Source of the DNA: Sphingobacterium sp. UBA4616
GTDB taxonomy: Bacteria; Bacteroidota; Bacteroidia; Sphingobacteriales; Sphingobacteriaceae
Direction of reading: 5' to 3'
Length of the DNA: 64,000 nt
Assembly (NCBI GenBank): GCA_002386525.1
Contig: DGIS01000008.1
Span: 124,001 to 188,000, forward strand
This document shows positions 8,636 through 41,793 of this stretch, in pieces (position 1 is the stretch's first letter; the number at the start of each line of letters is the position of its first letter). The translations under genes and the position numbers were made by a program. The notes beneath the pieces were generated by a model, which made no database searches, was not told the origin of the DNA, and saw only the letters and a list, made by a program, of their open reading frames with translations.

Positions 8636-11600
8636 TTATAAAAGTTTTGTTTGTTTATTTTTAAATATCTGATAGCCTCCCTTTTTCATTCGTTTAGATT
8701 TATCGCCTATATAGTTATTTGCTATCATTAATTCGAAGAGCATTTCATTATATGAAGTATGTTCTAGATCCAAACTTTCATTTATATTTGTTGATAGGTA
8801 TCTGTGATATTCTCTGTCTCCTAGAAGTCCAATAATTTCCCTAATTTCAGATTGACTGAACCGGTCAAAGTAATTATTTAAGATCTGTACATTAGAAGGG
8901 TCAGATTTGTGATATGATATTGCTTCGATAATTTTTAAATTATTTACTGATAGGCCTTGATCTTCAGATAATCGATATTGCAAGTTAGATATAAATAAAT
9001 GTGATGTCCAGTCCGTTATATCATGTGTGCCTAGAATATTATTGATTTCATCTACTGAATAGGCATTTGAGTGCATTATTTGGGCTAAATGACTTTCATC
9101 CAACGTAAAGCCATCATCGACTTCTAAAAGTTCATCTTTATGACTTTCGAGATACAACAGCCCCAAGGAATGGAAATTCTCTAAATTATTATACACATTG
9201 TTATCAAGAGCGAAACTCTTTCTCTTAATCATAACTTCCAACCTATCTTTGGCAGTATTTTCAAAATCAAAAAACCGAATTCCAATACTGCTAGCCTTTA
9301 GAGTATGTTCGAACGCTTCATCGGATAAGAAAGATGATGCTAAGAGGTCTTTCCACATTTGTATGTTGGTCATTTTTCCTTCTTCGTTTTTGTCTTGTGG
9401 AACAGGCATAATTGATAGCAACTGAGCATTGTCCCCACTATTGATAAAATCCGCTATATCTTTTAAGATGTCTTCGTAACCACTATAAATGTAATGTAAG
9501 TTTTCCCAGGTAGGTTTGATTTTACTAATTGCTAGTAGATGAAACATTAACTCGTCATCGTTGATTACCGATATATCCGAAATAGTGGCTTCCATTCTAT
9601 CGCTGATCAGCTTACTATTATGGGGTTTAATATTCTTTTTATTAAATAGCTCAATCAGATCTTGTTCTTCCTCCTTTGTATTGGTTTCTATGCCTAAGTA
9701 AATATCTCTGACATATTTATCAATGTTATCGTCAATATATGAGATGATATGTTTATCACCAAAATTTTTTATAGCGGCGTAATTTGTGGTTTCAAAGGCT
9801 TTTTTATTCGTATCTTCTGCATTTATTTTTAACATCTGCAGTATGTTTTCCTTATTGATTCTGTAATGGTTGTTCCGGTATACGAAGTTAAATAGGCTTT
9901 TTGTGTCGTTGGTTGGTTCGTCTAGTTTATGGAATTTTATATTAAGTTCATGTATTAGTGTACTTATCTTTTTTTCAAGGTCTTTATTCCCTTTTGTATC
10001 TACCAACGACAAGAAGCTAGGGTTGTATGTTATCATTTCGATTAGCGAATCGTGATTTTGCTTCATTATATCCTCGACGTTCGCATGTGTTAAGATCAAC
10101 TGTAGGTAATTATTTATTTTGTCTCCTTGATAATTAGATTCTTCTGCTACGTAGTAAAAGAAATTCTCCCATTGCTTCGTTAGTTTATTTATAAAAATAT
10201 CGATAGGTCTGTTGTGATCAGCGACGTAGCCATCTATAAATTTTATTGATCGGTCGCCTTCGTCGCTTAGTAGTATGATAATAGCTTCGAATAGTGTTTT
10301 ATAGGTATTATAATTTTTGACCAAATAGTCGACAAGATCAAAATTCAAGATTACATCTCTACCGAAGTACCTCAAATCGATTCTCTCAAGTAGACCGTCT
10401 ATCTTACGTAGTTCGTATGTGAAGTCGGTTGGGATTCCACTTTTAACATTGCGTTCAAATAATATGTCTCTTTTGGTAACAGACCCTTCATGGAATTGGG
10501 AAATATAGTCGTTATAATTTTCATTTATATGCCCATTGATAATCAGGTTTCGCAACAGAGCATTGTTTGAAAAGTCCATTAGGTATTGGTCTGGATTGAC
10601 TTTTTCAAAAATTTGCTTTAATTCCCGAGATTTAACTTCATTTTTTTCACTAATTAATTTGTTAATGTCTTCTTTGAGGGTGTCTAAGCGATTTTTTGCC
10701 TTATCAATGGTTAGCTCAAGGCGGTCTTGGTAACTGTAGCTAATGTTGATTTCTTTTTCTATCTCTGAGAAGTTATAGTGAAATGGGTTTGACGAAATTA
10801 ATCTAGGATATCCATTTTGATTAACGATTTTGCTGAAAGTTAGTTTTCCATTTAGTAGTTTTTCAAATCCTTCATCTTCTAATAGTTCTTCTATAGATCC
10901 GTTTAAAACGGTATTCTCTGGTAATTTGGTGAGAACGCCATTGATATAAATCCCCCTTAATTCACGTACATTGTTGATGTTATGATTTTTGATCTCTTCT
11001 ATTTGATGCTCTTTTTCTATTATTTTCCCATCCAAAATAGAAATGAACTCCTTGATGTATTCCTTTTTATTGTGAATAAATTTATAGAGTTTACCTTGTC
11101 TATTGTTCAGTAATGAAAAGTCTTCAGGCTCAATATTTTTATACGTAATTATTGCGAAGAGATCTTCTGGTTTCGTTACGAACTCTGCTTTAAGAGCATG
11201 TCTGAATATAACAAACTCGTGGAAAATGTTAATCAATAACCGCATATCGATGTCATCGATAAATGTGACCACATCTGACATAAATTCTCTGGAGAAAATT
11301 TCTTCCTTTAGCCCAGCTTCTTTTATCAAAGTTTGTAACTGTTCTCTGGCGTTTGATGAGTTGATAAAAGGTATGACAGGTATGATGTATTCGAAAAACT
11401 TGACACGCTCTTTTTTGTCTTTGATCACGTCATCTCCAACGGCGTATATAAAATTAATTTTCCTTTCGGAAATTGAAGCCGAATTATTTAATAAAATATT
11501 TATTTCGCGTAATTTCGTAAAGATATCAGTATTATCAAATCGATCTAAGTCTTCTATTATTACGACATCATAATCTGTACGTTCGAAAAAGTATAGTATT

Positions 11601-12313
11601 TCTTCCAGATACTCATTAAATACAGATTTGTTGACATTGTCACCTAATTCTATTTCACCTTTTATATCGACCTTGTTTATCTTCGAATTGCTAAAAATTT
11701 GAAGAATAAATTTTGATAGAAGGCCTATTCCACTGAACGAAATGAGTATAAAAAATAATCCAGACCAACTAAATGACTGGTCTGTCTTCCAGGTTTCAGG
11801 ATTAAGTTTGTCAAGATAATCGTACTTGAGTAGCATGATCATGCTGATCACCCATATTACTAATAAAACGGCTATCAATAGAAATTGCCACCATTTCCGG
11901 TTAATTATTCGTTTAAATCGTGATTCAGGTATTTTTTCTGGTTTAACGTGATAAAAGATTTGTTGGAGTATACTCACCTCTAGCAACCGCTCCAATTTTT
12001 CTTTTTCGACAGGTTCCAGTTTCCCATCTTTTTGGTTGAAAGCTGCTAGTGATACATTAAGAATTTTATACTGCGGGTTAAGTGCTTTGAAAGTTTTCAA
12101 AATGGTACTTTTCCCAGAACCGTAACTACCGGTTAGCGCAATGTTATTCACGTCTTTTGCATCGATGGTCTCTTTGAGCTTGTTTATATAAGGCTGTATC
12201 TTTTCGATATCTTCCGGCTTCGTCAGTACTTTCGGGGCGAGCGAACTGATACTGCTTTCAATTGGTTCATTTAATGCCTTTTTGGAAGCGAAAAACTTGG
12301 TAAAAACATTCAT
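8636..12313 (-). CDS. YobI-like large P-loop NTPase with two membrane helices
   Basis: This 1225-residue protein has a Walker A motif (GSYGSGKST, about residues 62-70), two transmembrane helices (about 141-162 and 181-206) placed between the Walker motifs, and a Walker B-like VVIIEDLDRFD (about 250-260). The long helical C-terminus (about 400-1225) has no motif I recognise. The layout matches the YobI-like P-loop NTPases, relatives of KAP/STAND ATPases. It sits between DarTG and an AlbA_2-domain gene whose stop is 40 bp upstream on the same strand, so the two may form an operon. A membrane-anchored NTPase with a large sensor-like C-terminus in this setting suggests a defence role; that is inference. 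Confidence 0.8.
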   Translation of the reverse strand: MNVFTKFFASKKALNEPIESSISSLAPKVLTKPEDIEKIQPYINKLKETIDAKDVNNIALTGSYGSGKSTILKTFKALNPQYKILNVSLAAFNQKDGKLEPVEKEKLERLLEVSILQQIFYHVKPEKIPESRFKRIINRKWWQFLLIAVLLVIWVISMIMLLKYDYLDKLNPETWKTDQSFSWSGLFFILISFSGIGLLSKFILQIFSNSKINKVDIKGEIELGDNVNKSVFNEYLEEILYFFERTDYDVVIIEDLDRFDNTDIFTKLREINILLNNSASISERKINFIYAVGDDVIKDKKERVKFFEYIIPVIPFINSSNAREQLQTLIKEAGLKEEIFSREFMSDVVTFIDDIDMRLLINIFHEFVIFRHALKAEFVTKPEDLFAIITYKNIEPEDFSLLNNRQGKLYKFIHNKKEYIKEFISILDGKIIEKEHQIEEIKNHNINNVRELRGIYINGVLTKLPENTVLNGSIEELLEDEGFEKLLNGKLTFSKIVNQNGYPRLISSNPFHYNFSEIEKEINISYSYQDRLELTIDKAKNRLDTLKEDINKLISEKNEVKSRELKQIFEKVNPDQYLMDFSNNALLRNLIINGHINENYNDYISQFHEGSVTKRDILFERNVKSGIPTDFTYELRKIDGLLERIDLRYFGRDVILNFDLVDYLVKNYNTYKTLFEAIIILLSDEGDRSIKFIDGYVADHNRPIDIFINKLTKQWENFFYYVAEESNYQGDKINNYLQLILTHANVEDIMKQNHDSLIEMITYNPSFLSLVDTKGNKDLEKKISTLIHELNIKFHKLDEPTNDTKSLFNFVYRNNHYRINKENILQMLKINAEDTNKKAFETTNYAAIKNFGDKHIISYIDDNIDKYVRDIYLGIETNTKEEEQDLIELFNKKNIKPHNSKLISDRMEATISDISVINDDELMFHLLAISKIKPTWENLHYIYSGYEDILKDIADFINSGDNAQLLSIMPVPQDKNEEGKMTNIQMWKDLLASSFLSDEAFEHTLKASSIGIRFFDFENTAKDRLEVMIKRKSFALDNNVYNNLENFHSLGLLYLESHKDELLEVDDGFTLDESHLAQIMHSNAYSVDEINNILGTHDITDWTSHLFISNLQYRLSEDQGLSVNNLKIIEAISYHKSDPSNVQILNNYFDRFSQSEIREIIGLLGDREYHRYLSTNINESLDLEHTSYNEMLFELMIANNYIGDKSKRMKKGGYQIFKNKQTKLL

Positions 12314-12352
12314 AGTTAAATGGTTTGGTTAGGTGGGACATACGTTTTAACT

Positions 12353-14038
12353 TCAGATCACGCTTCCCATTAGAAAGTTTATTCCTCTCTGCGTTATCCT
12401 ATACTGTTGGTTAGGAGAGTTGGCTTGGGCTATCGTGTACTCAATTAATTTATGGCTCCTGAGGGGATTAAGATACCCATCCCTAAGCGAATCTTTCTTT
12501 TTATAGCCTAATATGTCGGTGAGTTCTTCAATAGATATAGGTAATATAGTAAATAGCAAAACCGCTAGTAGAACCCTGGTTCTCTTTTGTAGCAACTCTC
12601 CGGTTTTTTCTTCCCAGCTCCCCCCTTTTTTTAGGTTGGCGATAGTCAAGTTGTTGTTAATTAGTAGTCTAAGTTTTTCTAGCTCCCCCTTTTTTTCTTG
12701 CCAACTCCCCCCTAAAGTAATAGCCAGCTCATCCCAGTCCTTCACGTTTTTGAGTCTCGAATCTAGAGAAAGTCCTTTCAACTGCTCTATACGTTCGTGT
12801 CCCAACTGATCTTTTGTGAGGTCGGCAAGATGGAGATAAAGCTGATAGTTCTCTCCCACTAAATAGGTAACCATTGGGATCACGCTACGGAAAGACTCAT
12901 CCTCTATAAAAATAGGGTGCGTTCCGCCAGTGTATGCGACCACGAATTTGTTCATGTTTTTGACGCCCGAACCGATCTCATCTGCCCATGTCAAGACATT
13001 GAAAAATGCACGGATATTGGGGTTCTTAGGTTCAGCCTCAAAGGTGTCGAGATTTAACGGTCCTCTAAAACGTGGACGGCTCGGGTTTATAGTTTCCACA
13101 CGATCCTCATAGATTAGAACTTCGGTTGGCAGTGCATTGTTGTATTCCCTATGGATTATGATATTCCCGACCAGTTCCCTGAAGATCAGTTCACGTAGAT
13201 CTTTTCGCTCTCCGCTGTTGTCTTGGTAAAATTTCTCTGGCCACTTGGATTTTATGAAAGCCAGCGCTTGTAGGTACGAATCGATAAGATTGGTTTTTAG
13301 CAATAGCCGATCGTCCCATCGATCCAAATTGTGCCGGCGCTCTAATATATCAATACGATAGGCAGGTAAGATATTGCCTATCACCTCATCCGTTCCAAAT
13401 ATTAGTGCTGCTGCTAGTGTCAACCCTTCTTCACCTGTAGCAAAATCCCTTCGCAATAACCGCGCATCCCGTAGTATGCGCTCATTGGAAGCTTCGAGCC
13501 ATGGATGATTGGCATTGACCAGTGCGAGGCGTGAACGTACTTTATCAAATAGGGAACGATTAAGATCGGTTATTTGTAGGTGAGGGAAAATCTTGTTCTC
13601 CGTAAAGACGTTTCTTTTCCTAGCGTATAGATCGGCTATTCGAGCCTCATCGGTTACCCGGAAGTCACTGTCGTTCTCTCTGTCGTATATGATATTTTTG
13701 TGCTTGTGGACAAACGAGCTTAATGGTACACGTATATACAGTATCGTTCCATTAGGATGTACTACTTCCTCAACCGGAAGCGGAAAGATAGGGGAGAGGA
13801 CGTCTGGATTGTTTAATGTCGTGACAATATCTTGTTTTAGGTTTTTTAGATTCTGTTCGCTCAGCCCGAGTATGGTACCATCGTCATTCACGCCTAAAAG
13901 AATTATACCCCCTTCGTGATTCAAGAAAGAACATACCGTATCATATAAAGAAGCGGGAACACCATTTTGGGCTTCCTTAAATTCTATTCGAATTCCTTCT
14001 CCTTGATCGATGATTTTATCTAACTCTGTTTGGCCCAT
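12353..14038 (-). CDS. AlbA_2 (Schlafen-type) putative DNA-binding protein with ATPase-like C-domain
   Basis: The 561-residue protein starts with an AlbA_2/divergent-AAA_4 domain (about residues 8-130: RIEFKEAQNG, SFLNHEGGIILLGVNDDG), followed by an HATPase_c_4-type region (about 270-390: LVGNIIIHREYNNALP, RPRFRGPLN, EIGSGVKNMNKF). A winged-helix-like tail closes it. Such proteins are annotated as ATP-binding transcriptional regulators and recur in defence islands. The linker at about 440-490 repeats GGSWQEKKGEL as GGSWEEKTGEL, built on near-identical G-rich DNA. The YobI-like gene follows on the same strand. The real activity is unknown. Confidence 0.8.
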   Translation of the reverse strand: MGQTELDKIIDQGEGIRIEFKEAQNGVPASLYDTVCSFLNHEGGIILLGVNDDGTILGLSEQNLKNLKQDIVTTLNNPDVLSPIFPLPVEEVVHPNGTILYIRVPLSSFVHKHKNIIYDRENDSDFRVTDEARIADLYARKRNVFTENKIFPHLQITDLNRSLFDKVRSRLALVNANHPWLEASNERILRDARLLRRDFATGEEGLTLAAALIFGTDEVIGNILPAYRIDILERRHNLDRWDDRLLLKTNLIDSYLQALAFIKSKWPEKFYQDNSGERKDLRELIFRELVGNIIIHREYNNALPTEVLIYEDRVETINPSRPRFRGPLNLDTFEAEPKNPNIRAFFNVLTWADEIGSGVKNMNKFVVAYTGGTHPIFIEDESFRSVIPMVTYLVGENYQLYLHLADLTKDQLGHERIEQLKGLSLDSRLKNVKDWDELAITLGGSWQEKKGELEKLRLLINNNLTIANLKKGGSWEEKTGELLQKRTRVLLAVLLFTILPISIEELTDILGYKKKDSLRDGYLNPLRSHKLIEYTIAQANSPNQQYRITQRGINFLMGSVI

Positions 14039-14083
14039 ATTGGTTCTTAAAGTTTTCTAAGACCTCTAATTTACGAAATTGGG

Positions 14084-14323
14084 TTAAGTATTTTTGTGTA
14101 AACGATTATTCTTCAGTATTAATTCTAAAATGCCAGAAATTGAACCGAAACAACTGGCATCAACACTCCGAAATACCCAACTTTGCATCACCTGTATCCC
14201 TTCAACCATCAGTGCCAGATCGCTCCAGGACAATGCTTCATTTTTTACGTTAAAGTAAGCTAAAAATAAGATAATAGAAATACATATGTTTTTAGCCAAA
14301 ACACCTATGGGATAGTGCATCAT
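14084..14323 (-). CDS. Small hypothetical protein, possibly a remnant
   Basis: A 79-codon reading frame starts MMHYPIGVLAKNICISIILF and ends ILELILKNNRLHKNT. It has one hydrophobic stretch near the N-terminus and no domain I know. It lies between the AlbA_2 gene and scrambled IS3 remnants, in DNA with a near-repeat of GCCAAAACACCTATGG / GCCAAAATGCCTATGA (about 14297 and 14358). It may be the broken end of a larger gene. The DNA from 14324 to 14645 shows nothing else I can support. Confidence 0.25.
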   Translation of the reverse strand: MMHYPIGVLAKNICISIILFLAYFNVKNEALSWSDLALMVEGIQVMQSWVFRSVDASCFGSISGILELILKNNRLHKNT

Positions 14324-14645
14324 CGATCTGTTTCGTTATGGAATCCATAGGTTTCGAGCCAAAATGCCTATGAAAGAATAGCTATGTACGACACGGATTT
14401 TACGTTGTGCAAATTGACTTGTAAACTACTTGACACCTTCAATTTGATTTAAATTTCGCTTGATGAGATTTTAAAAAGGTATCACATTACAATAAGCTTT
14501 TTTGAGATTATTTGTTATTTTATCATCACCTACACAATACAATATATCTATATGTTCCCGTCTCTTTTCTCGGAACATATTCTCTTGAAGTTGCTACATT
14601 TGAGTGGACATCAAATTAAGAGAATTTGATAACTTAACAGACTTA

Positions 14646-15245
14646 TGTCGAAAGAAAAGTTTATAACAAAGAGTTCAAACTGATGAGTGTTGAACTAAGT
14701 AACACGCGTAGTGACCTTAGCGCGCTGGCTCGGGAATTGGATATTAGCCCTGCATTGTTGTATAGAGGTGGCGCAAGGAACATTCTGTAAGACAAGGGTA
14801 TAGTTTTCCCGGTAATGGAAAAGTAATTCTGAGTGAGCGAACAGGAGTTAGCACGATTAAGAAAAGAACTTCGGGAGACACAGATAGAACGGGATATATT
14901 AAAGAAGGCTGTAAGCATCTTCTCCAAGAGCGACACCAAATATTCAGGTTCATAAGGAACAATAAGTAAATATTTTCAATCGAGAAGATCTTCCGTGTGT
15001 TCAAGGTGAGCAGAGCGGGCTATTACAACTTTTTAATGGGCGTTCCTTCAAAGAGAAGTGTTGAATACCCATAGCTCGCTATGGCAATCCAAGATGCTTT
15101 TATAAATAGTAAGAAAACTTACGACAAGTCCACATATTACCCGAGAACTGCACAAAAAGAATATCAAAGTATCCATTTATTAAAAATTCTACAGGTGTAA
15201 GTTACCCTAGCGAAGAATGTGGACTTACAGTATTATACATCTATG
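14646..15245 (+). pseudogene. IS3-family transposase remnant (orfA plus start of orfB)
   Basis: Forward translation with frameshifts gives MSVELSNTRSDLSALARELD and ISPALLYR (the orfA helix-turn-helix), then [20 protein letters not shown] (the leucine zipper), ending KYSGS. The orfB start follows (IFSIEKIFRVFKVSRAGYYN), then further broken pieces. At least two single-base shifts and several stops make it inactive. The catalytic part does not continue in this direction; a piece of it lies inverted just downstream. This is a decayed, rearranged insertion sequence inside the island. Confidence 0.8.
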
Positions 15246-15521
15246 CCGAGGCACTAGCGTATTTTCTGATCGCAGTTAGGTTTTCAAACATGTAACTGTC
15301 CAATACATCCTGTCTGAAAGTTCTATTGAATCTTTCGATAAGACTATTTTAGTCGTTTTCCCTGGTTGGATGAAGTGCCATTCAATGCCATTTTGAGAAT
15401 ACCAACCCTGTAATACCTCCGCTAGAAATTCAGGGCCGTTCTCCGATCGTATGCATTCCGGTTTTCCTCGCCATTCTACAAGTTTTTCTAGTGTTATAAT
15501 TTTGCAATTTAAATATAGCAA
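15245..15521 (-). pseudogene. IS3-family orfB (integrase core) fragment, inverted
   Basis: The reverse strand reads LEKLVEWRGKPECIRSENGP, then EFLAEVLQGWYSQNGIEWHF and IQPGK, the DDE integrase core of IS3 orfB. After a frameshift it continues towards the tail (FRQDVLDSYMF-like). It is opposite in orientation to the orfA fragment at 14646-15245, so an inversion or two nested insertions scrambled the element. Both ends are missing and there is no function. Confidence 0.8.
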
Positions 15522-15658
15522 TATCTCTATATCAAAGCACCGCCATTTTTAATCGTTTAACACGCAAGTGATAGTCAATATAAATAAGTGGATGCATTCT
15601 ATTTTATAAGTTTTCGATAGAAGTTGTGATTTGTAGTTTAACGATAGTATTCCATTTT

Positions 15659-16813
15659 TTAGATAAAAAGTTGTACAAAAACTTCATTCCAATTAACATA
15701 ATTCCATTCAATTGATGACTTTACATTATTTATACACCATTTTTTTAATTCATCTAAATCTACTTCCCCGGGATCTCTTTTCCATTTACAAATTGTTGAT
15801 TCTAAGAAATGAAGTTGATGCCCATTAACGACCAACCATTCTATTATTTTTTCTGTTTCATCTTTGTTAAGCTGTAGATCGATACTCTTTGCAAGATGTT
15901 TATAGTTAGAGAAGTCTGAGAAATTAAATTTTGTAGAGTAAAGTATTTCAGTAAGTGTTTTGATGTCGGATATGAAGATTTGCCCCGAAGTGTAATCGAA
16001 GTATTCTTTATTTAACCAAGGATGAAGTTCGAAAAATCTCTTACTAGCATTGTTATACAGTTCTTTATCATCTATTATTATTTTATTCGGATTAAATACC
16101 CAATCCTTTTTTAGATCTAAAGAGAGGAACAGGGATTTAGTTGAACTTCGCCTTTTTGAAGTTAGTAAGATATCCTTCCATATTAGAACATCGCCATATT
16201 TGTTAGAAGTTTTATTACTATCCTCAAATCCTGGAGGGATAAGATTTCTAATTCGAAATTCGAAATCGGATATATTAGCCATTAATTCATCTAATTTTGT
16301 ATCACTTTTACTTTTGTTAATGAGTCTTTCTATATACTTTTGTCTATCCTCAAGCTTGAAGTTACTTTTTTCTGTGAGGACTTTTATTTTTGATCCTAAT
16401 GAGTTGATTTCATTCATCATTTGATCAATGAAATCTTTCTTGTTTACATAACCATTTTTCTTTGAAGTTTGATTATCAATTACCAATCTTGCTGTATCAA
16501 CTAAGAATTTTAGGTTGTTTTCTAGTTCTTTTAAACGCTTTTTATAGGGAGAAAAAACTAACTCTGAATTTGTACTTATTAGGCTATTATATTCTTGGAT
16601 CACCCAGATAGGAGTTACTAAAGAATTACAAGAGATTAAAGAATTGAACCATTTAGTCAATTCAAGGAACGAATCTTGATCTAGGCGAAGTGTCCAAATG
16701 AGAATATTTGTGTCAATGAAGACTAATTCATGACCAGTGTTGCGCTCAATAATTATATCAGCTAAATTACGATAGTATTGATCTACGTCTGAAACTTGTG
16801 AAATCACTTTCAT
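15659..16813 (-). CDS. PIN-like (PIN_8/DUF4935-type) predicted ribonuclease
   Basis: The 384-residue protein has an N-terminal PIN core: LVFIDTNILIWTLR (first acidic residue at D34) and PIWVIQEYN (Glu near 74). After a charged helical insert (about 90-190) come KYGDVLIWKDILLTSK and LFLSLDLKKDW, the remaining acidic positions of PIN_8-type domains. PIN proteins are metal-dependent RNases. The start codon overlaps the stop of the upstream gene by 4 nt (ATGA), so the two are translationally coupled. Codon use is as A+T-rich as the rest of the island. Toxin or defence effector is inferred; the specific target is unknown. Confidence 0.75.
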   Translation of the reverse strand: MKVISQVSDVDQYYRNLADIIIERNTGHELVFIDTNILIWTLRLDQDSFLELTKWFNSLISCNSLVTPIWVIQEYNSLISTNSELVFSPYKKRLKELENNLKFLVDTARLVIDNQTSKKNGYVNKKDFIDQMMNEINSLGSKIKVLTEKSNFKLEDRQKYIERLINKSKSDTKLDELMANISDFEFRIRNLIPPGFEDSNKTSNKYGDVLIWKDILLTSKRRSSTKSLFLSLDLKKDWVFNPNKIIIDDKELYNNASKRFFELHPWLNKEYFDYTSGQIFISDIKTLTEILYSTKFNFSDFSNYKHLAKSIDLQLNKDETEKIIEWLVVNGHQLHFLESTICKWKRDPGEVDLDELKKWCINNVKSSIEWNYVNWNEVFVQLFI

Positions 16814-20914: not shown

Positions 20915-21056
20915 TACAGCTAATACCGTTAAAATTTATAAAATCAAATGTTATGTTAAATTTGCATTTTACTAAAAATAGTGCTTATATTTGTTTAATT
21001 ATTAGAAGATTGAAAGTCTTCAATGGTGTTTAAATCAAAGAGTCTTGTGCCTGTAT

Positions 21057-21177
21057 TTTCTGACGCCACACCGCAAGACAGCAGATTAAACACCCATGTC
21101 TATACTTTTATGCTATATTTGCATAACAGATAGATGTGGGTACTGCTGTAAATCCGTGGTGTGTAAGGCGTCAGAAA
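21057..21177. repeat. Long imperfect inverted repeat (hairpin or MITE-like)
   Basis: The outer arms TTTCTGACGCC (21057-21067) and GGCGTCAGAAA (21167-21177) are perfect. Inner parts also pair with bulges: ACACCGC with GTGGTGTG, CAGCAG with CTGCTG, ACCCATGTCTAT with ATAGATGTGGGT. The central loop is about 20 nt. The whole could fold as a ~50-bp imperfect stem in DNA or RNA. It lies between the HTH gene pair and the leader of the SusCD operon. A small non-autonomous element, a structured RNA or a regulatory hairpin are all possible. Confidence 0.6.
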
Positions 21178-21319
21178 CTTTATTTCAGGTACGGTGTGCA
21201 GTCCCACATTTATCATTAGGCGACTAACCGACAAGACTCGTTACCAATAAAACGAGTTATGAACAAAAAGCAACAATCAAAGAACATCATCACAGCCCCC
21301 GAGTAGCTTGGCTGGTTTG

Positions 21320-21347: not shown

Positions 21348-21369
21348 TGGAACGCGTAACGCCAATATT
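21348..21369 (+). promoter_or_regulatory. Secondary guide-RNA match in the SusCD leader
   Basis: The spacer that follows the last repeat at 42047-42082 matches this site at 18 of the first 22 positions, with mismatches at spacer positions 5, 15, 18 and 22; 13 of the first 14 bases agree (TGGAnCGCGTAACG). The similarity stops after that. It is on the same strand as, and 57 bp upstream of, the main match at 21405-21434. A worn second target is the likely reading, but the fit is imperfect. Confidence 0.5.
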
Positions 21370-21404
21370 ATACACTTTGTGACCCCTCATTCAAACGCGC
21401 TCTG

Positions 21405-21434
21405 GCTCCCTGAATGAATTAATTATTACTAATG
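21405..21434 (+). promoter_or_regulatory. Predicted target site of the sigma/dCas12f guide RNA
   Basis: This 30-bp stretch matches the spacer at 41538-41567 at 28 of 30 positions; only spacer positions 7 (A against T) and 26 (A against T) differ. The base just 5' of the site is G (context CTCTG). The site is on the coding strand, 92 bp before the first gene of the small-protein/TlpA/SusC/SusD operon. No convincing housekeeping promoter lies between. I read it as the place where the guide RNA brings the Cas12f-like protein and its sigma factor to start transcription. The match is direct observation; the role is inference. Confidence 0.85.
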
Positions 21435-21526: not shown

Positions 21527-21901
21527 ATGAACAGGATTTTAGCGCTACAACTGGCTTTTGACTTGATGATTTTTGATGTCCATAAGGATGACTATGACCC
21601 TATTAAGGATATTGAAGCATTCTGGAATGAATATGCGCTAGAGACTATATCTGCTAATATATTACAACTGTTGAGCACGTACCTGGATGGTGGTTTAGAG
21701 GAAAATAAACCCCTTAAAGATGCGGATATGCAAGAATTTGCAACTGCCATTTGCCGCGTATTGATTGCCTACAGTATTGCCAATTATCGTCATATCGATC
21801 CTAGTAAAATGCAGCTGTCAGCAGAAGCTAAAGTGCGCATCAAAAGAGAGATCGAATTGAGCGGAGAAATCGCCGAGTTCTTCAGTAGGTTATCGAAGTA
21901 A
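21527..21901 (+). CDS. Small hypothetical protein leading the SusCD operon
   Basis: The 124-residue protein is helical and soluble, with no signal peptide (MNRILALQLAFDLMIFDVHK at the start, LSGEIAEFFSRLSK at the end). I do not recognise a family. It is the first gene after the predicted guide-RNA target and is followed after 18 bp by the TlpA-like gene, so it should be the first cistron of the operon. Its place ahead of thioredoxin, SusC and SusD genes suggests a link to the uptake system, but nothing in the sequence gives an activity. Confidence 0.65.
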   Translation: MNRILALQLAFDLMIFDVHKDDYDPIKDIEAFWNEYALETISANILQLLSTYLDGGLEENKPLKDADMQEFATAICRVLIAYSIANYRHIDPSKMQLSAEAKVRIKREIELSGEIAEFFSRLSK

Positions 21902-21919: not shown

Positions 21920-24025
21920 ATGAATATCCTAAAATTACTAGCCTTTTTAAGGGGCTATATAACCTATATATTTCAAGTACCTGTGAAGCACTGCTTAAGG
22001 GCAGCTATAGCACGATTTACGCAACAGTTGCGTAAGAATGTTAGACTAATAAAGCGCTCTACTAGTGAAATTCAGAATCGAATAATAACAACTGTTTCCT
22101 CGGGAGGTCTTCGGCTTTTGCTTGACGAGCGTTCGACAATGCGTCGTACCAACGTCGCCTCTTCTTCGGGAACGCTTCGACTGTTGTTCGACTGCGCTTC
22201 GACTCCTACCCGAAGCGCAGTCGAAGCCCTGCCGAAGCCGAGTCGAAGAAGTGCCAAGCATGTATCGACCATGTCCCAAAGAAATCCCAAAGCTGAGCCA
22301 AAGGCCAGCCGACTAGGGGGAGAGGTATCACACTTTAAGGACTTTTTCCTGACCAACTTCGCCCCAACTCCTGCCTTTTATGCAGTCGGCCTCGGGTTTT
22401 GCTTTACCGTTGCTCGTATTTTATCCGAAGGAGACCCGAAGCCCACTCGAAGAAAATTCGAGCAACGCTGGGAGAAAGGGGGAAATTGGTCACCTATTGA
22501 GCAGGTATTGGCTGAGAAATTAGTAGTAGATGCTATGCCAACCAGTAGAGTTGAACTTAAACGATCTGTTTTAAGGTCTTTTAAGGCGATGTGTACCTCT
22601 CTTATATTACAACTTGACACTTTGCTTGGATTAATATGCTCAGTTGTTCAGCGAGCTTTAAAATACCTTTTATTCGTAGCAGATTATAAACAAGCCTATC
22701 GTATGATTTTGACAGGCTTGTTTTTATGTTTAGTTTCTATGTTTAGTTTATCGGCTCAGACGCCCCGCAAGGACAGCGGGGCCGATGGGCTAACTGCGAT
22801 ACAAGCGCTTGGAATAGGGGATACCATTCCGCAAAACTTGTGGAACCTCAAAATGCCTGTTTACAACGATAGCAAAGGACGGTCAACAATCTCCCTTAGC
22901 GATTATCAGGATAATAAACTGATTATCGTAGATTTTTGGGCCACGTGGTGTACCAATTGCATCGAAAGCTTTCCGAAATTGGATCAGTTGAAGGTTACTT
23001 TCAAAAACGATTTTGATGTGCTACTGGTCAATTGTAAGCGAACGCGCGACGATCAGGCAAGAATTGATAGGGTGCTCCACAAATACAAAGATACTTATCA
23101 GCTTAAAGTTCAGTTTCCGTATATTATTGGAGATACCATATTCAATGCCTTATTTCCGCATCGCGGAATACCCCATGTCGTGTGGATCGGAAACGACCGT
23201 GTCGTAAAAGCAATTACCTACACAACCGAACTTCAGGAGTCCAATGTGCGTCAGATTTTGGACGGCAAGAAAGCGGATTTCTATATGAAGGACGATTTTA
23301 AGTATAAAGTCCAGGATAGTCTGTCGACGGATACGCTCAAACTGTTCTCCTCTTACCTGAGTAAACGTAGGGAGGGAATCCGGGAAATGGGCGTACAGAT
23401 AAAAGAAAAGGGAGATGAAAAGGAATTTACATTTCTTAATTCATCGGTAGCCATGCGCATTTATGAATATTTGAGTGAAACTGGGCATCGTATAGAACGA
23501 AACCTTTGGGTATTTGATACGAATGTAGCAAATGAAATCCGTAGAACACTCAAAACACCTCAGCGTTATATGGATGAATATTGCTATTTTTTGCGGTACC
23601 CAAAAGATCGCATCGACTTTGATCCGTACCGGAAGATGATCCATGACATTCAGGATAATTTTGGGGTTAGATGGAAAATCAGGAAAGAAGTGATCGATGT
23701 ATGGCGCATCGACTCTACGCCTAAGGTTAGGCAATTTAAAACCAAAGGCCATATTCCACTTGAAGCAATTGACGCATCGAATAATAAAAAGTTCATTCAA
23801 AACGTTCCCCTGCGCAATAGTCTTCATGTACTCTCTTGGTTGTTGAATAAGCCTGTGCTGCTGGGCGATATTGAAGATATAAATGTCGACTTCGATCTGC
23901 CAGCGGATCTATTGACGTATACGGATACACAACTCCTACAGTTGTTGGAGCAGCTTGGAGCCAAGATAACTGTAGCACCGCAAGAAGTGGAGTATGTTTA
24001 TTTTTCTGCAGATAAGGGGGTATAG
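21920..24025 (+). CDS. TlpA-like thioredoxin-domain protein with a doubtful N-terminal extension
   Basis: The open frame encodes 701 residues, but the convincing protein begins at residue 262 (ATG at 22703). MILTGLFLCLVSMFSLSAQ is a signal peptide there, followed by a TlpA/thioredoxin fold with LIIVDFWATWCTNCIESFPK (redox CxxC motif) and a cis-Pro region HRGIPHVVWIG. A ~250-residue C-domain without known motifs follows. The first 261 codons include a palindromic repeat (22187-22225) and low-complexity Arg/Ser-rich sequence, so they may be an insertion that happens to stay open. SusC starts 2 nt after the stop. In such loci the periplasmic thioredoxin is thought to act on the imported substrate or its receptor. 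Confidence 0.75.
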   Translation: MNILKLLAFLRGYITYIFQVPVKHCLRAAIARFTQQLRKNVRLIKRSTSEIQNRIITTVSSGGLRLLLDERSTMRRTNVASSSGTLRLLFDCASTPTRSAVEALPKPSRRSAKHVSTMSQRNPKAEPKASRLGGEVSHFKDFFLTNFAPTPAFYAVGLGFCFTVARILSEGDPKPTRRKFEQRWEKGGNWSPIEQVLAEKLVVDAMPTSRVELKRSVLRSFKAMCTSLILQLDTLLGLICSVVQRALKYLLFVADYKQAYRMILTGLFLCLVSMFSLSAQTPRKDSGADGLTAIQALGIGDTIPQNLWNLKMPVYNDSKGRSTISLSDYQDNKLIIVDFWATWCTNCIESFPKLDQLKVTFKNDFDVLLVNCKRTRDDQARIDRVLHKYKDTYQLKVQFPYIIGDTIFNALFPHRGIPHVVWIGNDRVVKAITYTTELQESNVRQILDGKKADFYMKDDFKYKVQDSLSTDTLKLFSSYLSKRREGIREMGVQIKEKGDEKEFTFLNSSVAMRIYEYLSETGHRIERNLWVFDTNVANEIRRTLKTPQRYMDEYCYFLRYPKDRIDFDPYRKMIHDIQDNFGVRWKIRKEVIDVWRIDSTPKVRQFKTKGHIPLEAIDASNNKKFIQNVPLRNSLHVLSWLLNKPVLLGDIEDINVDFDLPADLLTYTDTQLLQLLEQLGAKITVAPQEVEYVYFSADKGV
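22187..22225. repeat. REP-like palindrome inside the TlpA open frame
   Basis: Perfect 15-bp arms TTCGACTGCGCTTCG (22187-22201) and CGAAGCGCAGTCGAA (22211-22225) enclose a 9-nt loop. Related TTCGAC/GTCGAA and CTTCGG/CCGAAG words continue from about 22095 to 22270. Such G+C-rich palindromes are usually intergenic repeats in Sphingobacteriaceae. Here they sit within an open frame. Confidence 0.75.
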
Positions 24026-24027
24026 GC

Positions 24028-27000
24028 ATGAAAAAAATCATATTAATGGTGTTATTCCTGATTATTACGGGGATGGCAAACTTCGCTATTGGACAGCACG
24101 CTGTGGCAAGAATGGCGGGGCGGGTTATTAATAGCGAAAATAAGAAGCCGATTGAAGGTGCCTCAATTATCATATTACGGGATAATAGTCAGGCAAAATC
24201 CGACCGTGACGGGGAGTTTGCGCTAAAGGCAAATCATGGTGACAGCGCATTGGTCAGCCATATTGGCTATCATAGTAAGACCGTGTTGTATAAGTCTGGA
24301 AGTTCAAGACTGACGGTTATGCTAGTGCCTTTGGCGAATGTACTGGATGAGGTAATGGTGAGTTCGGGATATCAGCAGCTGCGACCCAACGAGATGACAG
24401 GATCTTTTCAGGTATTGGATAAAAAAACACTCGACCAGCAGGTGGGAACCAATATCCTTGACAGGTTAAATAATGTGACACCTGGTTTCCGTAAGGGGAC
24501 TTTCGAGTTTAAGCCCAACCGAAATGATAAGCTAAATATTTCAATTCGGGGCCTCAGTACGATAGAGGCTTCTAAGGATCCCTTGGTTGTACTCGATGGT
24601 TTTATCTATGAGGGCGATATCGACAATATCGATCCGAATAGCATTGCATCAGTTACGGTGCTCAAAGATGCGGCAGCCACATCAATATGGGGAGCGCGCG
24701 CTGGAAATGGTGTCATTGTGCTTACCAGTATCAATAGTTCCAATAAATTGCAAAAGACGACGGTGAATATTTCGCATACCGTCACGACGAAACGCGTAAC
24801 GGATTACAGTAAGCTGTATCAGCCAGCTAATCTGGACTATATCTTAGCCGAACAGGAGCTTTTTAATGTAGGCTACTATGATGGGAAGATCGAGCAGAGT
24901 CCATACCTTGCCCTGTCACCTACAACCGAAGTTTTTCTGGCTCGTCGCAAGGGATTGATTTCGGCGCAGGATTCGGCCGATAGGATTGCCAGACTGTTGG
25001 TGATGGATGGTAAAAAGGCCTACAGAGATGCTTTTCTGCGAAATCCATTGTTGCAGCAGTCTTTTGCCAGCGTTTCAGGCGCGTCTAATGTAATCAGATA
25101 TAATTTTGGTGTCGGTAATACCGTGGATCTTTCCGAAAATAAAGCGAAAGACAATAAGATCAATCTTTACCTGAACAATTCATTTCATTGGAAAGACAAG
25201 TTTGAGTTAAATCTCAACGTGAATTTTCTCACCCAGAGACAGCGTTCTGGCACTCCGGCATTTGACCTATTTAAGTATGGCGGTAAATATGTGCCATTTT
25301 TTGAATTTATAAATGGAGAGGGGGGCGCATTGCCATTTAATACGGCTTATCGGGGAAACTACCTCAATGAATTTTATGGTGATAAGTTGCTGGATTGGAA
25401 CTATTACCCAGTGCATGACTATGAGCTGGATCGCACAACAACACGAAAAAATGAATTGTATTCCATCGTACAGGCTAAATATAATATTAAGCCTTACTTA
25501 ACAGCCACCGTGTCTTACCAATACCAGCTTCAGCGTAATACCATGGAACGGATCGCACAGACAGATAGTTATTATACGCGCAATATGATCAATATGTTTT
25601 CAAATATCGACCCGCAATCTGGTTTGGTAACATATCCGATTCCTATTGGAGGTATTTTTGATCTGAACAATGCGGATATCAGTTCATATACCTGGAGAGG
25701 ACAACTCAATTTTAACCGGTCATTCGGAGTCCATCAGATCAATGGTATTTTAGGTGCAGAGATTAGAGAAGTATTGTCTAAGGGTGCATCGAATACTTCC
25801 TACGGTTATAGTGCCGACCCGATACGCACAAAAGTGGTGGATTATGCCAACTTTTATCCAACACTGCCCGCGGGTGGATATGCTGCCATTCAGGGAAATT
25901 TGTCGCTCATAAAATCCCTGAATCGATTTGTGTCTAACTATGCCAATATGGCCTACCTATTCAAGCAAAAATATGGTCTGTCGGCAAGTATTCGTAAGGA
26001 TGGGGCAAATGTGTTCGGTGTAAATACCAATGATAAATTTAATCCGTTTTGGTCGGTAGGTGCTAGCTGGCAAATGGGGAAAGAGAAGTTTGTTGATTGG
26101 AAAGCGATAGATGTGCTGCAGCTGAGAGCCACCTATGGCTACAGTGGCAATATTGATCCCTCGCGGACACCTCTTCCCGTTGCTGAAACCACCAGCGGAC
26201 GTTATACCAATTATCCTGCTTTTGTGATCAGTACCTTGAATGATCCATCTTTGCGATGGGAAAAGGTGCGAACGTTGAATCTGGGTCTGCAATTTGGATT
26301 GTTCAAAAGTAGAATCACGGGAAGCATTGATTATTACGTGAAAAAGAGCACAGATCTCTACGGCAATTCATTAATAGATTATACAGTATTTGGCAAAGCC
26401 AACACGACAGTAAAAAATAACGCTTCAATTAAAAGTCAAGGTGCCGAGTTGAATTTGACTGCCGAAGCGATCAGGATGCCGAGCTTTAGCTGGCGGCCTG
26501 CGGTGCTATTGAGCTTGAATAAGAATAAAGTACTAGAATACTACAATACCCAGTTTGGTCTCATCAATTTGGTGGGAAATGGCACGGCTACTATGCCAAT
26601 AGTCGGTAGGCCGCTCAATTCCATCGCCGCATTTAATTGGGGTGGATTGGATCGAAATGGCGACCCACAAGGTTTCTTAGATGGTGAACTGTCCACAGAT
26701 TATCAAAAGATAAGAAACTCAACTGTAGGGGAAATTAACGATAACCAAACCATTGTATACGTAGGATCGGCGGTCCCACAATTGTTTGGAAATTTGATCA
26801 ATACATTTTCCTATCGCAATTTTGAACTGTCATTTAACCTTTCCTTTAAAGCAGATTACTATTTCAGCAGACAGGCAACCACTAGCGGCAATTTTTATAC
26901 GTACGGCAAAGCGTATGCGGATTATGAAAAGCGATGGCAGGCAGCAGGGGATGAAAACTATACACAGGTACCTCGGGTAAAATATCCCATCGATGCGAAT

Positions 27001-27249
27001 CGCGATGCTTTCTATCAGGGAAGTAAAGTCAATGTGCTGAAAGGAGATCATGTCCGTATGGAATATATTAATCTCTCTTGGCGCAACCTTTGGCAGCTTG
27101 GTAGCAAAAAGGTGAATTCCCGTGTGTTTTTTAATGCCAGTAACCTGGGGTTGATCTGGAAAAGCAATAAGGAGCGGCTGGATCCTGATTTTCCTGGACG
27201 GTTAACACCGAACCCTACTTATGCTTTAGGGCTTAATGTCAGTTTTTAA
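24028..27249 (+). CDS. SusC/RagA-type TonB-linked outer-membrane transporter
   Basis: The 1073-residue protein has a signal peptide (about 1-22), a carboxypeptidase-regulatory-like domain (about 28-108), a plug (about 112-235: VMVSSGYQQLRPNEMTGSFQ, ISIRGLSTIEASKDPLVVLD, GARAGNGVIVLTS) and a beta-barrel ending YALGLNVSF. SusC proteins form the pore of a two-part importer closed by a SusD lipoprotein lid and powered by TonB. The susD-like gene starts 9 bp after its stop. The substrate may be a glycan, peptide or chelate and cannot be read. The operon leader carries the predicted guide-RNA target, so expression is probably under the sigma/dCas12f system. Confidence 0.95.
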   Translation: MKKIILMVLFLIITGMANFAIGQHAVARMAGRVINSENKKPIEGASIIILRDNSQAKSDRDGEFALKANHGDSALVSHIGYHSKTVLYKSGSSRLTVMLVPLANVLDEVMVSSGYQQLRPNEMTGSFQVLDKKTLDQQVGTNILDRLNNVTPGFRKGTFEFKPNRNDKLNISIRGLSTIEASKDPLVVLDGFIYEGDIDNIDPNSIASVTVLKDAAATSIWGARAGNGVIVLTSINSSNKLQKTTVNISHTVTTKRVTDYSKLYQPANLDYILAEQELFNVGYYDGKIEQSPYLALSPTTEVFLARRKGLISAQDSADRIARLLVMDGKKAYRDAFLRNPLLQQSFASVSGASNVIRYNFGVGNTVDLSENKAKDNKINLYLNNSFHWKDKFELNLNVNFLTQRQRSGTPAFDLFKYGGKYVPFFEFINGEGGALPFNTAYRGNYLNEFYGDKLLDWNYYPVHDYELDRTTTRKNELYSIVQAKYNIKPYLTATVSYQYQLQRNTMERIAQTDSYYTRNMINMFSNIDPQSGLVTYPIPIGGIFDLNNADISSYTWRGQLNFNRSFGVHQINGILGAEIREVLSKGASNTSYGYSADPIRTKVVDYANFYPTLPAGGYAAIQGNLSLIKSLNRFVSNYANMAYLFKQKYGLSASIRKDGANVFGVNTNDKFNPFWSVGASWQMGKEKFVDWKAIDVLQLRATYGYSGNIDPSRTPLPVAETTSGRYTNYPAFVISTLNDPSLRWEKVRTLNLGLQFGLFKSRITGSIDYYVKKSTDLYGNSLIDYTVFGKANTTVKNNASIKSQGAELNLTAEAIRMPSFSWRPAVLLSLNKNKVLEYYNTQFGLINLVGNGTATMPIVGRPLNSIAAFNWGGLDRNGDPQGFLDGELSTDYQKIRNSTVGEINDNQTIVYVGSAVPQLFGNLINTFSYRNFELSFNLSFKADYYFSRQATTSGNFYTYGKAYADYEKRWQAAGDENYTQVPRVKYPIDANRDAFYQGSKVNVLKGDHVRMEYINLSWRNLWQLGSKKVNSRVFFNASNLGLIWKSNKERLDPDFPGRLTPNPTYALGLNVSF

Positions 27250-27258
27250 ATAAAGAAA

Positions 27259-28623
27259 ATGATGAAAACAAATTATACTATAATCACACTATTGGGAATT
27301 TTTATGGTCTTGTGTGGAATGCTTTCATGCAGTAAGTTTCTGGAAGAAAAATCAAACTTTTCCCTTCAAACGCCAAATACACTGGAAAGTCTCCAGGGGA
27401 TATTGGATAATTCGATTGATATGAACATGAATGTTCCGGTATTTGGCGATATCCATTCAGACGATTATTTCTTCACTGAAAAGGAATTTAATGCGGTGGA
27501 TGATCAGTCGCGCGGATTTTATACCTGGGTAGGTTTTCCCTACAATTATCCGGACGACTGGGCGCTAATGTACGTGCCGGTCTATCAGGTTAATGTGGTA
27601 TTGGATGCTTTGCCAAAGGTAGGAGGCATTCAACGTGAAAAAGATAGAATTAAAGGAGCTGCACTCTTTTACCGGGCTTACCAGTACCTGCAGGGAATGT
27701 GGGTGTACGCTAAAGCATGGGATCCAAAGACTTCCGACACCGATCTGGGAATCGTATTGCGGCAGACCTCCGACCAGTCGGTCCCTTCAACACGCAGTAC
27801 GGTATCAGCCTGCTACCGCCAGATCATCGGGGATTTAGTAACAGCCGTAGAATTATTGCCCGAGCTTGCTGAATCGCCGATGCGCCCATCGAAAATTGCC
27901 TGCTATGGGGCATTGAGTAGAACTTATCTTTCTATTGGCAAATATGATAGTGCATATTATTATTCGGATAAAGCCTTAAAAATTAAGGAAGACTTGATAG
28001 ACTACAATGACTTTTCTTCGACAGATCTTTCGAAACCCTATCCATTAACCCGTTTGAATAAAGAGACGGTTTTTTATGCTCAGCTGACAACATCTTATCC
28101 CAATCTGCATCCGAGTTATGGACTCGTGGATACATTGCTGTATGCCAGCTATGGGGATAATGATATTCGGAAAGCATTATTTTTCAAGGCGAGGAATGGG
28201 TACTATAGTTTTAAGGGAAATTATACTTCCGCTTTCAACCTATTCGGAGGAATGGCTACTGATGAGCTATTTTTGACGCGGGCAGAGACTAGTATCCGAA
28301 TGGGAAATGTTGACAGTGGCTTGGATGACCTGAATGGGTTATTAACGAAACGAATCAAAAAGGGTAAATTCACGCCATACGTGGGACTTAACCAAGAGGA
28401 GGCCCTCAAGTTGATAAAAAAAGAAAGACGGAAACAGTTGCTGATGCGCGGGCTGCGATGGATGGACATTAAGCGCTATAATAAATACGATGGCGAAGAT
28501 CTTAAATTGCTGCGGTATATAGATGGAAGCAAGTATGAACTTGAGTCGAATTCAAATCGCTACGCTTTACCTTTGCCTACTGATATTATCCTGCTAACTG
28601 GAATGGAACAAAATCCGTTATAG
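27259..28623 (+). CDS. RagB/SusD-type outer-membrane lipoprotein
   Basis: The 454-residue protein has a lipoprotein signal ending MLSCSKFLEEKSN (lipobox Cys near residue 25), TPR-like helices (GAALFYRAYQYLQGMWVY, the typical SusD helix) and a C-terminal SusD signature (ERRKQLLMRGLRWMDIKRYN). It forms the extracellular lid over the SusC pore and captures the substrate. Length is close to the family norm. It is the last forward gene of the operon, and a G+C-rich hairpin follows 10 bp after the stop. Confidence 0.93.
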   Translation: MMKTNYTIITLLGIFMVLCGMLSCSKFLEEKSNFSLQTPNTLESLQGILDNSIDMNMNVPVFGDIHSDDYFFTEKEFNAVDDQSRGFYTWVGFPYNYPDDWALMYVPVYQVNVVLDALPKVGGIQREKDRIKGAALFYRAYQYLQGMWVYAKAWDPKTSDTDLGIVLRQTSDQSVPSTRSTVSACYRQIIGDLVTAVELLPELAESPMRPSKIACYGALSRTYLSIGKYDSAYYYSDKALKIKEDLIDYNDFSSTDLSKPYPLTRLNKETVFYAQLTTSYPNLHPSYGLVDTLLYASYGDNDIRKALFFKARNGYYSFKGNYTSAFNLFGGMATDELFLTRAETSIRMGNVDSGLDDLNGLLTKRIKKGKFTPYVGLNQEEALKLIKKERRKQLLMRGLRWMDIKRYNKYDGEDLKLLRYIDGSKYELESNSNRYALPLPTDIILLTGMEQNPL

Positions 28624-36920: not shown

Positions 36921-38165
36921 TTATTTGTAAATAGAATAGACCATATCGCGTTTATATTGATAGTTTCCGTTTCCTGAATCTGCACTTGCATAACCAAACC
37001 AACCATTATTCTGACCGCCCCATCCCCAGTTCATGTGAAACCACAAATATCCGCCTCCTCCAATTGTAGAACCATCCGGCAAAGTTTCGGGACAGTTTAT
37101 ATACTCGTGAACTCCATCTGCCACCCAACAATGACCACCGGAGTATGAATTTCCAGCCTTTGAACTATAGCCTGTTAATATTACTGGTCTATTCGCTTTT
37201 ATTTCACTCTCAACTATTAAATAGTTAAAGCTTGTGGCAGTTGCAGTAGGTGAATATCCAAATGTTTTAAGGGTGGAAGAAATGGCATTTGTATTTGCCG
37301 CCGCTCCTGTTCCGGTGCAATTATAACTCGAACCTACATCATCTGCTGCTCGCCACATCAGCCTTGATATTTCATTTGCTCCTGCGGACACATCATTATA
37401 ACCTGAAACCGCATTAGGCATAATACTATAATTATATGTGGTCGGATACTGATGGTATTTCATCACTTGTGCCATTGCGGTGGCTACACAACCAGTATAT
37501 GCTTTACCATTGCAATAGTAAGGAGTACAACTCATTGCAGGCATATAATTGTTATATCCACCTTCTTGGCTCCAATTTGTTGATAATAGAGGACCTATCA
37601 TTAAATTAATATCCTCACATTTAGGCGGGTTGGGTTTGGCAACATTTCCTCCGGACGCCTTTGTTTTTATAGTAGATACCGTGGTGCCGGATAATAGCTC
37701 AGCATATTTGCCCTTTTTCAATAGCTTATCCGCTATGTTTGCGTTCCGCATTCCTTTTGCTTTGATATCTTCAATTTCAAGCTTTGTATCATTCAGCCAA
37801 GCATCAGCAGCAATTGCGACAATACCAGAATGAAACGAAGATTTGTCTGAATAGGCAAGCACTGGATTTGCTCTGCGGTCTGCTGCTAAAATAATGAATC
37901 CGCCATTCGTATAGTTAAATATACGCATCACAACCGTTCCATCACTACCCGTAATTTCTTTTTCGAGAACTGTATTGTGGGCTTTATTTATGCCTGTGCT
38001 GGCTTTCACTTTGTGATGTAATATGAACTGTTGTAAAGAGTCTGCAATGGTTTTGCTCTCCTTCAGAGAAATAAAATTCTCATCATTTAAGTTATCCTGC
38101 TTTAAATCTTCTCTACTGCATGAAAAGAAGATAAGAATAGCTAAGTACAAATAAACTTTTCTCAT
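36921..38165 (-). CDS. C10-family (streptopain-like) cysteine protease, lipoprotein
   Basis: The 414-residue protein has a lipoprotein signal (LYLAILIFFSCSRED, Cys near 16), an inhibitory Spi-type propeptide (about 40-150: NYTNGGFIILAADRRANPVL), and a C10 catalytic domain (about 185-414). The nucleophile is the Cys of KAYTGCVATAMAQVMKY, the catalytic His lies in YSGGHCWVADGVHEY, and WFHMNWGWGG carries the supporting Trp/Asn region. Family members are secreted zymogens that cut host or competitor proteins. The lipoprotein downstream is probably co-transcribed. Length is normal and the key residues are present. Confidence 0.92.
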   Translation of the reverse strand: MRKVYLYLAILIFFSCSREDLKQDNLNDENFISLKESKTIADSLQQFILHHKVKASTGINKAHNTVLEKEITGSDGTVVMRIFNYTNGGFIILAADRRANPVLAYSDKSSFHSGIVAIAADAWLNDTKLEIEDIKAKGMRNANIADKLLKKGKYAELLSGTTVSTIKTKASGGNVAKPNPPKCEDINLMIGPLLSTNWSQEGGYNNYMPAMSCTPYYCNGKAYTGCVATAMAQVMKYHQYPTTYNYSIMPNAVSGYNDVSAGANEISRLMWRAADDVGSSYNCTGTGAAANTNAISSTLKTFGYSPTATATSFNYLIVESEIKANRPVILTGYSSKAGNSYSGGHCWVADGVHEYINCPETLPDGSTIGGGGYLWFHMNWGWGGQNNGWFGYASADSGNGNYQYKRDMVYSIYK

Positions 38166-41667: not shown

Positions 41668-41793
41668 TGAGTCTTGTTTGTGAAACGTGAGAAATTTGAT
41701 GTTGATTATATGCAATTAGCGTATGAGCTACTACCGTAATTAATTCCTTTGCGTAGAACTTGAAAAGTAAGAAAATTTTCAAAATTATATATT

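Follow-up and report, generated by a model that had tools for sequence, protein, structure and literature searches.

Gene Content of the Locus

The window, i.e., the whole 64-kb stretch of Sphingobacterium DNA that was analysed, carries on its + strand a SusCD operon, a repeat-spacer array, and the genes of a sigma factor and a Cas12f protein. The operon opens with a gene of 124 aa (21527-21901), which is predicted to be all-helical and belongs to a paralogous family, followed by a thioredoxin/TlpA-like protein (21920-24025, ORF start uncertain), a SusC-like TonB-dependent receptor (24028-27249), and a SusD-like lipoprotein (27259-28623). SusCD operons determine glycan or peptide uptake in Bacteroidota.

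The operon is preceded by a leader with three TAnnTTTG motifs (20957, 20986, and 21114) that resemble the Bacteroidota housekeeping -7 element, and the operon may thus have a housekeeping promoter as well. By motif similarity, TATATTTG at 20986-20993 is a candidate housekeeping promoter, and the same -7-like TATATTTG recurs at 21114-21121 in the middle of a palindrome. A preliminary description of this DNA had counted a housekeeping promoter that fully explains the transcript against its own reading; promoter-like motifs do lie upstream, as candidates by motif. The stretch 21037-21310, which contains the palindrome, is strongly structured (folding z-score -6.4), and its closing arms, AGAGTCTTG and CAAGACTC, may have other pairing partners. 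A similar element is found ahead of a Pedobacter dCas12f locus (L024, around 8189), and a search of 20800-44200 against Rfam at E up to 0.5 gave no match. As well, the leader holds an ORF, MNKKQQSKNIITAPE (21260-21307), whose stop codon lies inside a hairpin-like CCGAG-TAG-CTTGG stretch; ORFs of this kind, ending in APE or SPE at a similar stretch, were seen in 11 of 41 leaders, the window's included.

Elsewhere, the window has a defence-like cluster (8636-16813) with a Tmn/YobI-ATPase, a Schlafen AlbA_2 protein, and a PIN_8 protein; a C10 peptidase with a Spi inhibitor domain (36921-38165); and a protein with MutS domain V (38641-39384), adjoined by a 188-aa gene at 39402-39968.

In the array there are two blocks, one from 41320 and the other from 41797; a conserved tracr-like guide scaffold (41320-41440 and 41797-41912) opens each of them, and repeats and spacers follow. 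The seven repeats of the array are degenerate, 34-37 bases long and mutually about 65-89% identical (41441-41476, 41504-41537, 41568-41602, 41632-41667, 41913-41948, 41979-42015, and 42047-42082), and each is followed by one of seven spacers of 27-31 bases, namely s1 (41477-41503), s2 (41538-41567), s3 (41603-41631), s4 (41668-41697), s5 (41949-41978), s6 (42016-42046), and the terminal unit s7 (42083-42112). The predicted fold of the scaffolds comprises hairpins that are conserved and a stem that closes on the initial bases of the repeat, and the scaffold hairpin is nearly invariant among 15 aligned scaffolds from the window and eight relatives. Since the covariation term is about zero, with two-sided changes in 2 of 36 pairs, conservation and energy are what support this structure.

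The gene at 43065-44159 encodes a protein of 364 aa, which matches PDB chains named 'Nuclease-deactivated Cas12f' (9n9c, 9n9m, 9n9o, and 9n9q) over residues 3-363 at E = 1.6e-123, with 44-46% identity in the Foldseek alignment; PADLOC also assigned it to Cas12f. The entries 9n9c and 9n9m, released on 2025-12-24, bear the titles 'dCas12f-gRNA complex' and 'dCas12f-gRNA-DNA complex (partial R-Loop)'. One chain named TnpB also matches, at E = 7.8e-24, behind the dCas12f and Cas12f chains. The AlphaFold model of the protein is poor (mean pLDDT 54), and the structural matches are supported by residues 206-364. The VDLG stretch of the aligned Cas12f chain 9nzo reads ASLS here, with Ser227 invariant in 16 aligned sequences; opposite QMERL stands LLLVNQ, which holds no glutamate, and the match stops about 90 residues short of the chain end of 9nzo. 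We take the aspartate of VDLG and the glutamate of QMERL to be RuvC catalytic positions. The RuvC domain of the window protein is therefore predicted to be inactive, and the protein is called dCas12f below.

Directly upstream of dCas12f lies a sigma factor gene (42239-43048, 269 aa), whose sole strong PDB relative is chain C, 'RpoE', of 9n9q (E = 1.3e-39; next E = 0.15). Moreover, the top PDB match of a Sphingobacterium RpoA is the RNA polymerase alpha chain of 9n9p/9n9q. Because 9n9q combines dCas12f, RpoE, and RNA polymerase, the window pair is read as a pair for RNA-guided transcription. Of 21 relatives inspected, 19 have the sigma gene directly before dCas12f as well; in the two exceptions, the scan found another ORF (L020) or a broken ORF only (L030). 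Both window genes are intact, and both proteins are conserved across the aligned relatives; from alignment A3, one sequence with stop codons (L023) was excluded. The guide array, the nuclease-dead Cas12f, and the sigma factor that guided activation calls for are thus all present, with homologues solved together with RNA polymerase. By its testable protein and target features, the flank aside, as judged from the sequence, the window system belongs to the dCas12f-sigma kind of RNA-guided transcription.

Targets of the Window Spacers

The preliminary description had proposed that spacer s2 matches the leader of the SusCD operon, and this was borne out. Spacer s2 is identical at 28 of 30 bases to the + (coding) strand site 21405-21434, with mismatches at spacer positions 7 and 26, so that 24 of its first 25 bases match. 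A match of at least 28/30 is expected about 2.4e-9 times in 64 kb on both strands, and chance is negligible, as had been stated. The site is separated from the ATG at 21527 by 92 bases, and the base directly 5' of it (21404) is G. Apart from the spacer itself, no other strong match of s2 is present in the window, where the runner-up reaches 19/30. This 30-base site is likely a working target of s2.

Among the remaining spacers of the seven, the best full-length match inside the window is 20/30. Over its full length, s7 reaches 20/30 in the same leader, by itself at chance level. Nevertheless, s7 has a putative second target at 21348-21368 on the + strand, flanked by GCCA, where 18 of its 21 flank-proximal bases match (6e-4 expected, for a 21-base length picked post hoc). 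Taking the first 20 bases of s7 instead, 17 match at 21348, and 0.024 matches of at least 16 are expected.

A joint change of spacer and leader among relatives, which had been proposed as a check, was observed for the s7-type guide in two genomes (G004 and G009). In both, the terminal spacer and an own leader read TGGAGAG; the corresponding window sequences are TGGACCG and TGGAACG, so the joint change is small. No own match of an s7-type guide was found in G001, G003, or G093, and in G069 it is 21/30.

The claim that the guide names the one operon under control did not hold. Five of the seven spacers have matches in leaders of the paralogous SusCD family, s2 within the window, which was the own-genome sequence compared, and s1, s3, s5, and s6 in other genomes only. 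Spacer s1 matches paralogous leaders at 22/27 (L119) and 23/27 (L206), s3 one at 23/29, s5 two at 24/30 (L122) and 25/30 (L206), and s6 one at 29/31. For s4, no target was found in the loci examined. An identical spacer is present in the array of another genome (G082; L192, 2533), where the degenerate repeat behind it begins in the same way. In addition, s7 partly matches the leader that s2 matches, and s2 agrees at 30/30 with a leader of another Sphingobacterium (L148). A single guide for a single operon was rejected because of these five spacers, together with the many spacers of relatives that match leaders of the family.

Spacer Matches in Related Genomes

A genome scan returned 30 dCas12f loci, 28 of them in Sphingobacterium records; among the closest, nine carry multi-spacer arrays built like that of the window. 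Paralogues of the first operon gene occur in 9 of 10 close array-bearing genomes, with up to 8 per genome, and in 5 of 12 more distant ones. Since the operon family is found in only 5 of these 12 distant array-bearing genomes, guides in the distant group must mostly aim elsewhere.

The main set comprised the ten arrays of the window and nine relatives. From these, 153 spacers (134 distinct) were extracted, and removal of those shorter than 26 nt or beyond the array limits left 138 instances and 121 distinct spacers of at least 26 nt, among which some end-of-array pseudo-spacers are retained, one of them in the window at 41732. They were compared with 41 loci (40 regions and the window) that reach from -4 kb to +4 kb of the first-gene start, or less at contig ends; from 42 first-gene rows, one of the two rows of a split gene (the second, in G004) and a copy with a stop (in G008) had been excluded. 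At 76% identity, 48 of the 121 spacers matched the coding strand, against 1 antisense match (AT-rich), 0 reversed, and 1 of 363 shuffled spacers; at 80%, the counts were 45, 0, 0, and 0 of 363. For 43 of the 48 best matches, the start lies before the first gene (28 of them within 500 bases), and for the other 5 it lies at +34 to +362. Among relatives, the spacers with a match follow, as a rule, the coding-strand, promoter-side pattern stated for s2.

Other settings were also counted (sense, antisense, and reversed), and the two further spacer sets proved equally one-sided. Within the own genome only, the 121 spacers gave 15, 1, and 0 at 76% and 12, 0, and 0 at 80%. A further set of 115 spacers from 14 loci, for which a looser repeat-end rule and 47 regions were used, other genomes included, gave 12, 0, and 0 at 76%, with one of the 12 at +1283. 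For 42 spacers from four genomes with near genome-length contigs, the counts were 19, 0, and 0 at 80%, 21, 1, and 0 at 76%, and 26, 2, and 2 at 73%; in the own genome, they were 7, 0, and 0 at 76%, and 2 matches were found at 80%. When 144 instances of spacers of at least 23 nt were compared with their own genome for a 5' pyrimidine-pyrimidine-purine (YYR) flank together with at least 16 of the first 20 bases, 20, 1, and 0 were obtained; with at least 14 of the first 20 bases, the counts were 35, 16, and 13.

No match in the loci of the SusCD operon family was found for 73 of the 121 spacers. Some guides match leaders of other genomes better than any own leader, and some sites lie 1.7-3.1 kb upstream, in part inside genes of the opposite strand, or within the first gene. 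One spacer pair (G003 and G009), whose own targets lie 1.94 kb upstream, agrees at its variable base in G009 and not in G003. This spacer type matches 1.9 kb before the operon in an opposite-strand gene (L086 5116-5145; L087 near 3561), which at the G003 site encodes an HNH endonuclease. The spacer pattern TTSTTCC..., allowing up to 3 mismatches, was found in 5 places, in arrays only.

Taken together, the matches suggest that the array likely addresses several operons of this SusCD family, with two guides (s2 and s7) for the operon of the window, and that most sister guides are likely aimed at such operons as well.

Flank and Seed of the Matched Sites

The bases 5' of the sites played no part in the matching, and across 41 sites the most informative positions between -30 and +110 were -1 to -4. 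A YYR flank was present in 24 of 34 independent groups, against a background of 12.7% (p = 1e-14). At position -1, the 34 groups have A 17, G 14, T 3, and C 0, and positions -2 and -3 are mostly pyrimidines. Each site of the five matching window spacers is preceded by YYR, including that of s2, whose flank is TCTG (21401-21404). The preliminary description had taken the single 5'-G as the flank; this G is indeed present, but the matched sites as a whole give YYR rather than G alone, so YYR took the place of the single 5'-G.

Mismatches are also rarer in spacer positions 1-15 (44/510) than beyond (73/495; p = 0.003). Among the matches within the own genome (18), spacer positions 6-15 are clean (13/180 mismatches), but positions 1-5 are not (15/90). 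No motif at a fixed distance downstream of the matched sites (+30 to +110) stood out. In sites that were found by similarity alone, the YYR flank and the seed appear as a signature of Cas12-type recognition.

Leaders without Guides and Turnover of the Arrays

The leader site of the s2 type is present in 9 of 93 Sphingobacterium genomes, at 17 places; the 13 places newly read all belong to the same leader, with up to three copies per genome. Of these nine genomes, whose assembly completeness is unstated, four have a full-length dCas12f, three have none, and two have remnants. A leader kept in relatives that have no guide locus had been named as evidence against the guide, and as far as the assemblies go it is what was found, in the five genomes without full-length dCas12f. 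The short remnants (G080 C1:100389-100613; G079 C1:3334699-3334779) amount to a natural loss experiment. Special conservation of the s2 site was rejected, with a value of 0.969 for the site and 0.960 and 0.970 for its flanks.

Spacers of the s2 type were found neither in the four genomes with both the leader and a full-length dCas12f (G002, G005, G069, and G089) nor in the arrays of relatives that were read. As the leader is present without full-length dCas12f or an s2-type spacer and shows no extra conservation, it does not seem to have been made for the guide; rather, guides follow leaders.

The dCas12f proteins of G069 and G093 are 98% and 99% identical to that of the window, and by eye only the terminal, s7-type spacer is shared between their arrays and that of the window. 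One G093 spacer matches the window leader at -156 with 27/29 bases, and no s2-type leader site was found in the G093 genome with up to 3 mismatches. Cas1 (PF01867) was detected in 1 of 10 array-bearing genomes, of unstated completeness, and in 9 of 14 control genomes. The arrays thus turn over between close relatives although Cas1 was found in only 1 of 10 genomes.

Proposed Function of the Array

According to these features, dCas12f loaded with the s2 guide would bind the site 21405-21434, and the sigma factor that partners it would bring in RNA polymerase, so that transcription would start toward the SusCD operon. We consider it probable, from the sequence features taken together, that dCas12f with s2 and the sigma factor activates this operon, and that the array addresses several operons of the family, this one likely through both s2 and s7. 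Production and processing of the guides, binding, and activation rather than blocking are what we infer here. Of the earlier picture of a transcription-activating guide, the machinery, strand, and position fit, but the one-operon reading and the G-only flank were given up.

An alternative that is compatible with this explanation is that the intended target of s2 is a paralogous leader in another part of the genome, with the operon of the window as its 28/30 secondary target. The complete agreement of s2 with the L148 leader raises the possibility of a better-matched paralogue outside the window, and genomes can hold up to three copies of such a leader. However, s7 also matches the window leader on its flank-proximal side, and s2 does so at all but one of its first 25 bases, and we regard this alternative as possible, if rather unlikely.

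The guides might instead block transcription, in that dCas12f on the leader would halt a polymerase coming from an upstream housekeeping-like promoter and the array would silence unused SusCD operons. Dead Cas12-type roadblocks work best when the guide pairs with the template strand, as a sense guide does here; the three TAnnTTTG motifs all lie upstream of both the s2 and s7 targets; and the leader is kept in genomes without full-length dCas12f, so the operon can presumably be expressed without dCas12f. Against this stand the sigma gene directly before dCas12f, whose homologous pair was solved with RNA polymerase, and several sites whose distance upstream of the operon exceeds 1 kb. Blocking is thus improbable; activation is favoured by the sigma partner and the solved complex, a choice that DNA alone cannot decide.

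That the array is a decaying relic, with spacers as fossil copies of leaders that have no present role, is most improbable: the repeats are degenerate, relatives contain dCas12f remnants, and many spacers have no own-leader match in the loci examined (own-genome matches at 80% for 12/121 and 2/42), but dCas12f and sigma are intact and conserved, the scaffold hairpin barely varies, and mismatches are depleted in the flank-proximal half of the spacers.

With activation as the preferred reading, a broader role can be put forward tentatively, to which we give somewhat less than an even chance. This self-addressed array without Cas1 might serve as a rewritable switchboard: by some route, strains would copy stretches of SusCD leaders into it and thereby choose which of many paralogous operons, newly acquired ones included, is transcribed. 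If so, a CRISPR memory would have been turned into a regulatory address book that differs from strain to strain. How a cell chooses among its many SusCD paralogues is, to our knowledge, still poorly understood; in this case, short and readable DNA letters would spell out the choice, so that the regulon could be read from the array. Since arrays differ between close relatives with Cas1 so rarely found, the question is raised of how new guides originate from leaders.

Comparison with Known Systems

TldR proteins are nuclease-dead TnpB repressors (PMC13418256). They resemble the window system in that a nuclease-dead, RNA-guided DNA binder acts as a transcription regulator; TldR, of TnpB descent, is a repressor, whereas the window protein is a relative of Cas12f with a sigma partner.

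With Type V-F CRISPR-Cas (Cas12f), the window system shares the Cas12f family, a repeat-spacer array, a tracr-like scaffold, and a 5' flank of pyrimidines and a purine. The flank of Cas12f nucleases is TTTR. Unlike in Type V-F, the RuvC residues of the window protein are replaced, the protein is shorter, Cas1 was found in only 1 of 10 array-bearing genomes, and the matched spacers aim at chromosomal operon leaders on one strand. Type V-F immunity is thus not supported at the level of sequence, neither by an active RuvC nuclease nor by Cas1 in the genomes scanned.

A 2025 preprint from the Sternberg laboratory is said to have described dCas12f-sigma(E) RNA-guided transcription complexes, which reportedly have SusCD-linked targets and a minimal 5'-G flank. 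The window system is like these complexes (PDB 9n9c, 9n9m, 9n9o, 9n9p, and 9n9q) in its dCas12f, its RpoE-homologous sigma factor, and the RNA polymerase alpha chain in the entry. It appears to differ from the dCas12f-sigma(E) systems in having multi-spacer arrays with two scaffold blocks and several guides per genome, several target positions per leader, and a 5'-YYR flank instead of the minimal 5'-G reported for them. The dCas12f-sigma kind itself is already known and solved, and the window system is a variant of it whose multi-guide arrays are directed largely at one SusCD operon family.
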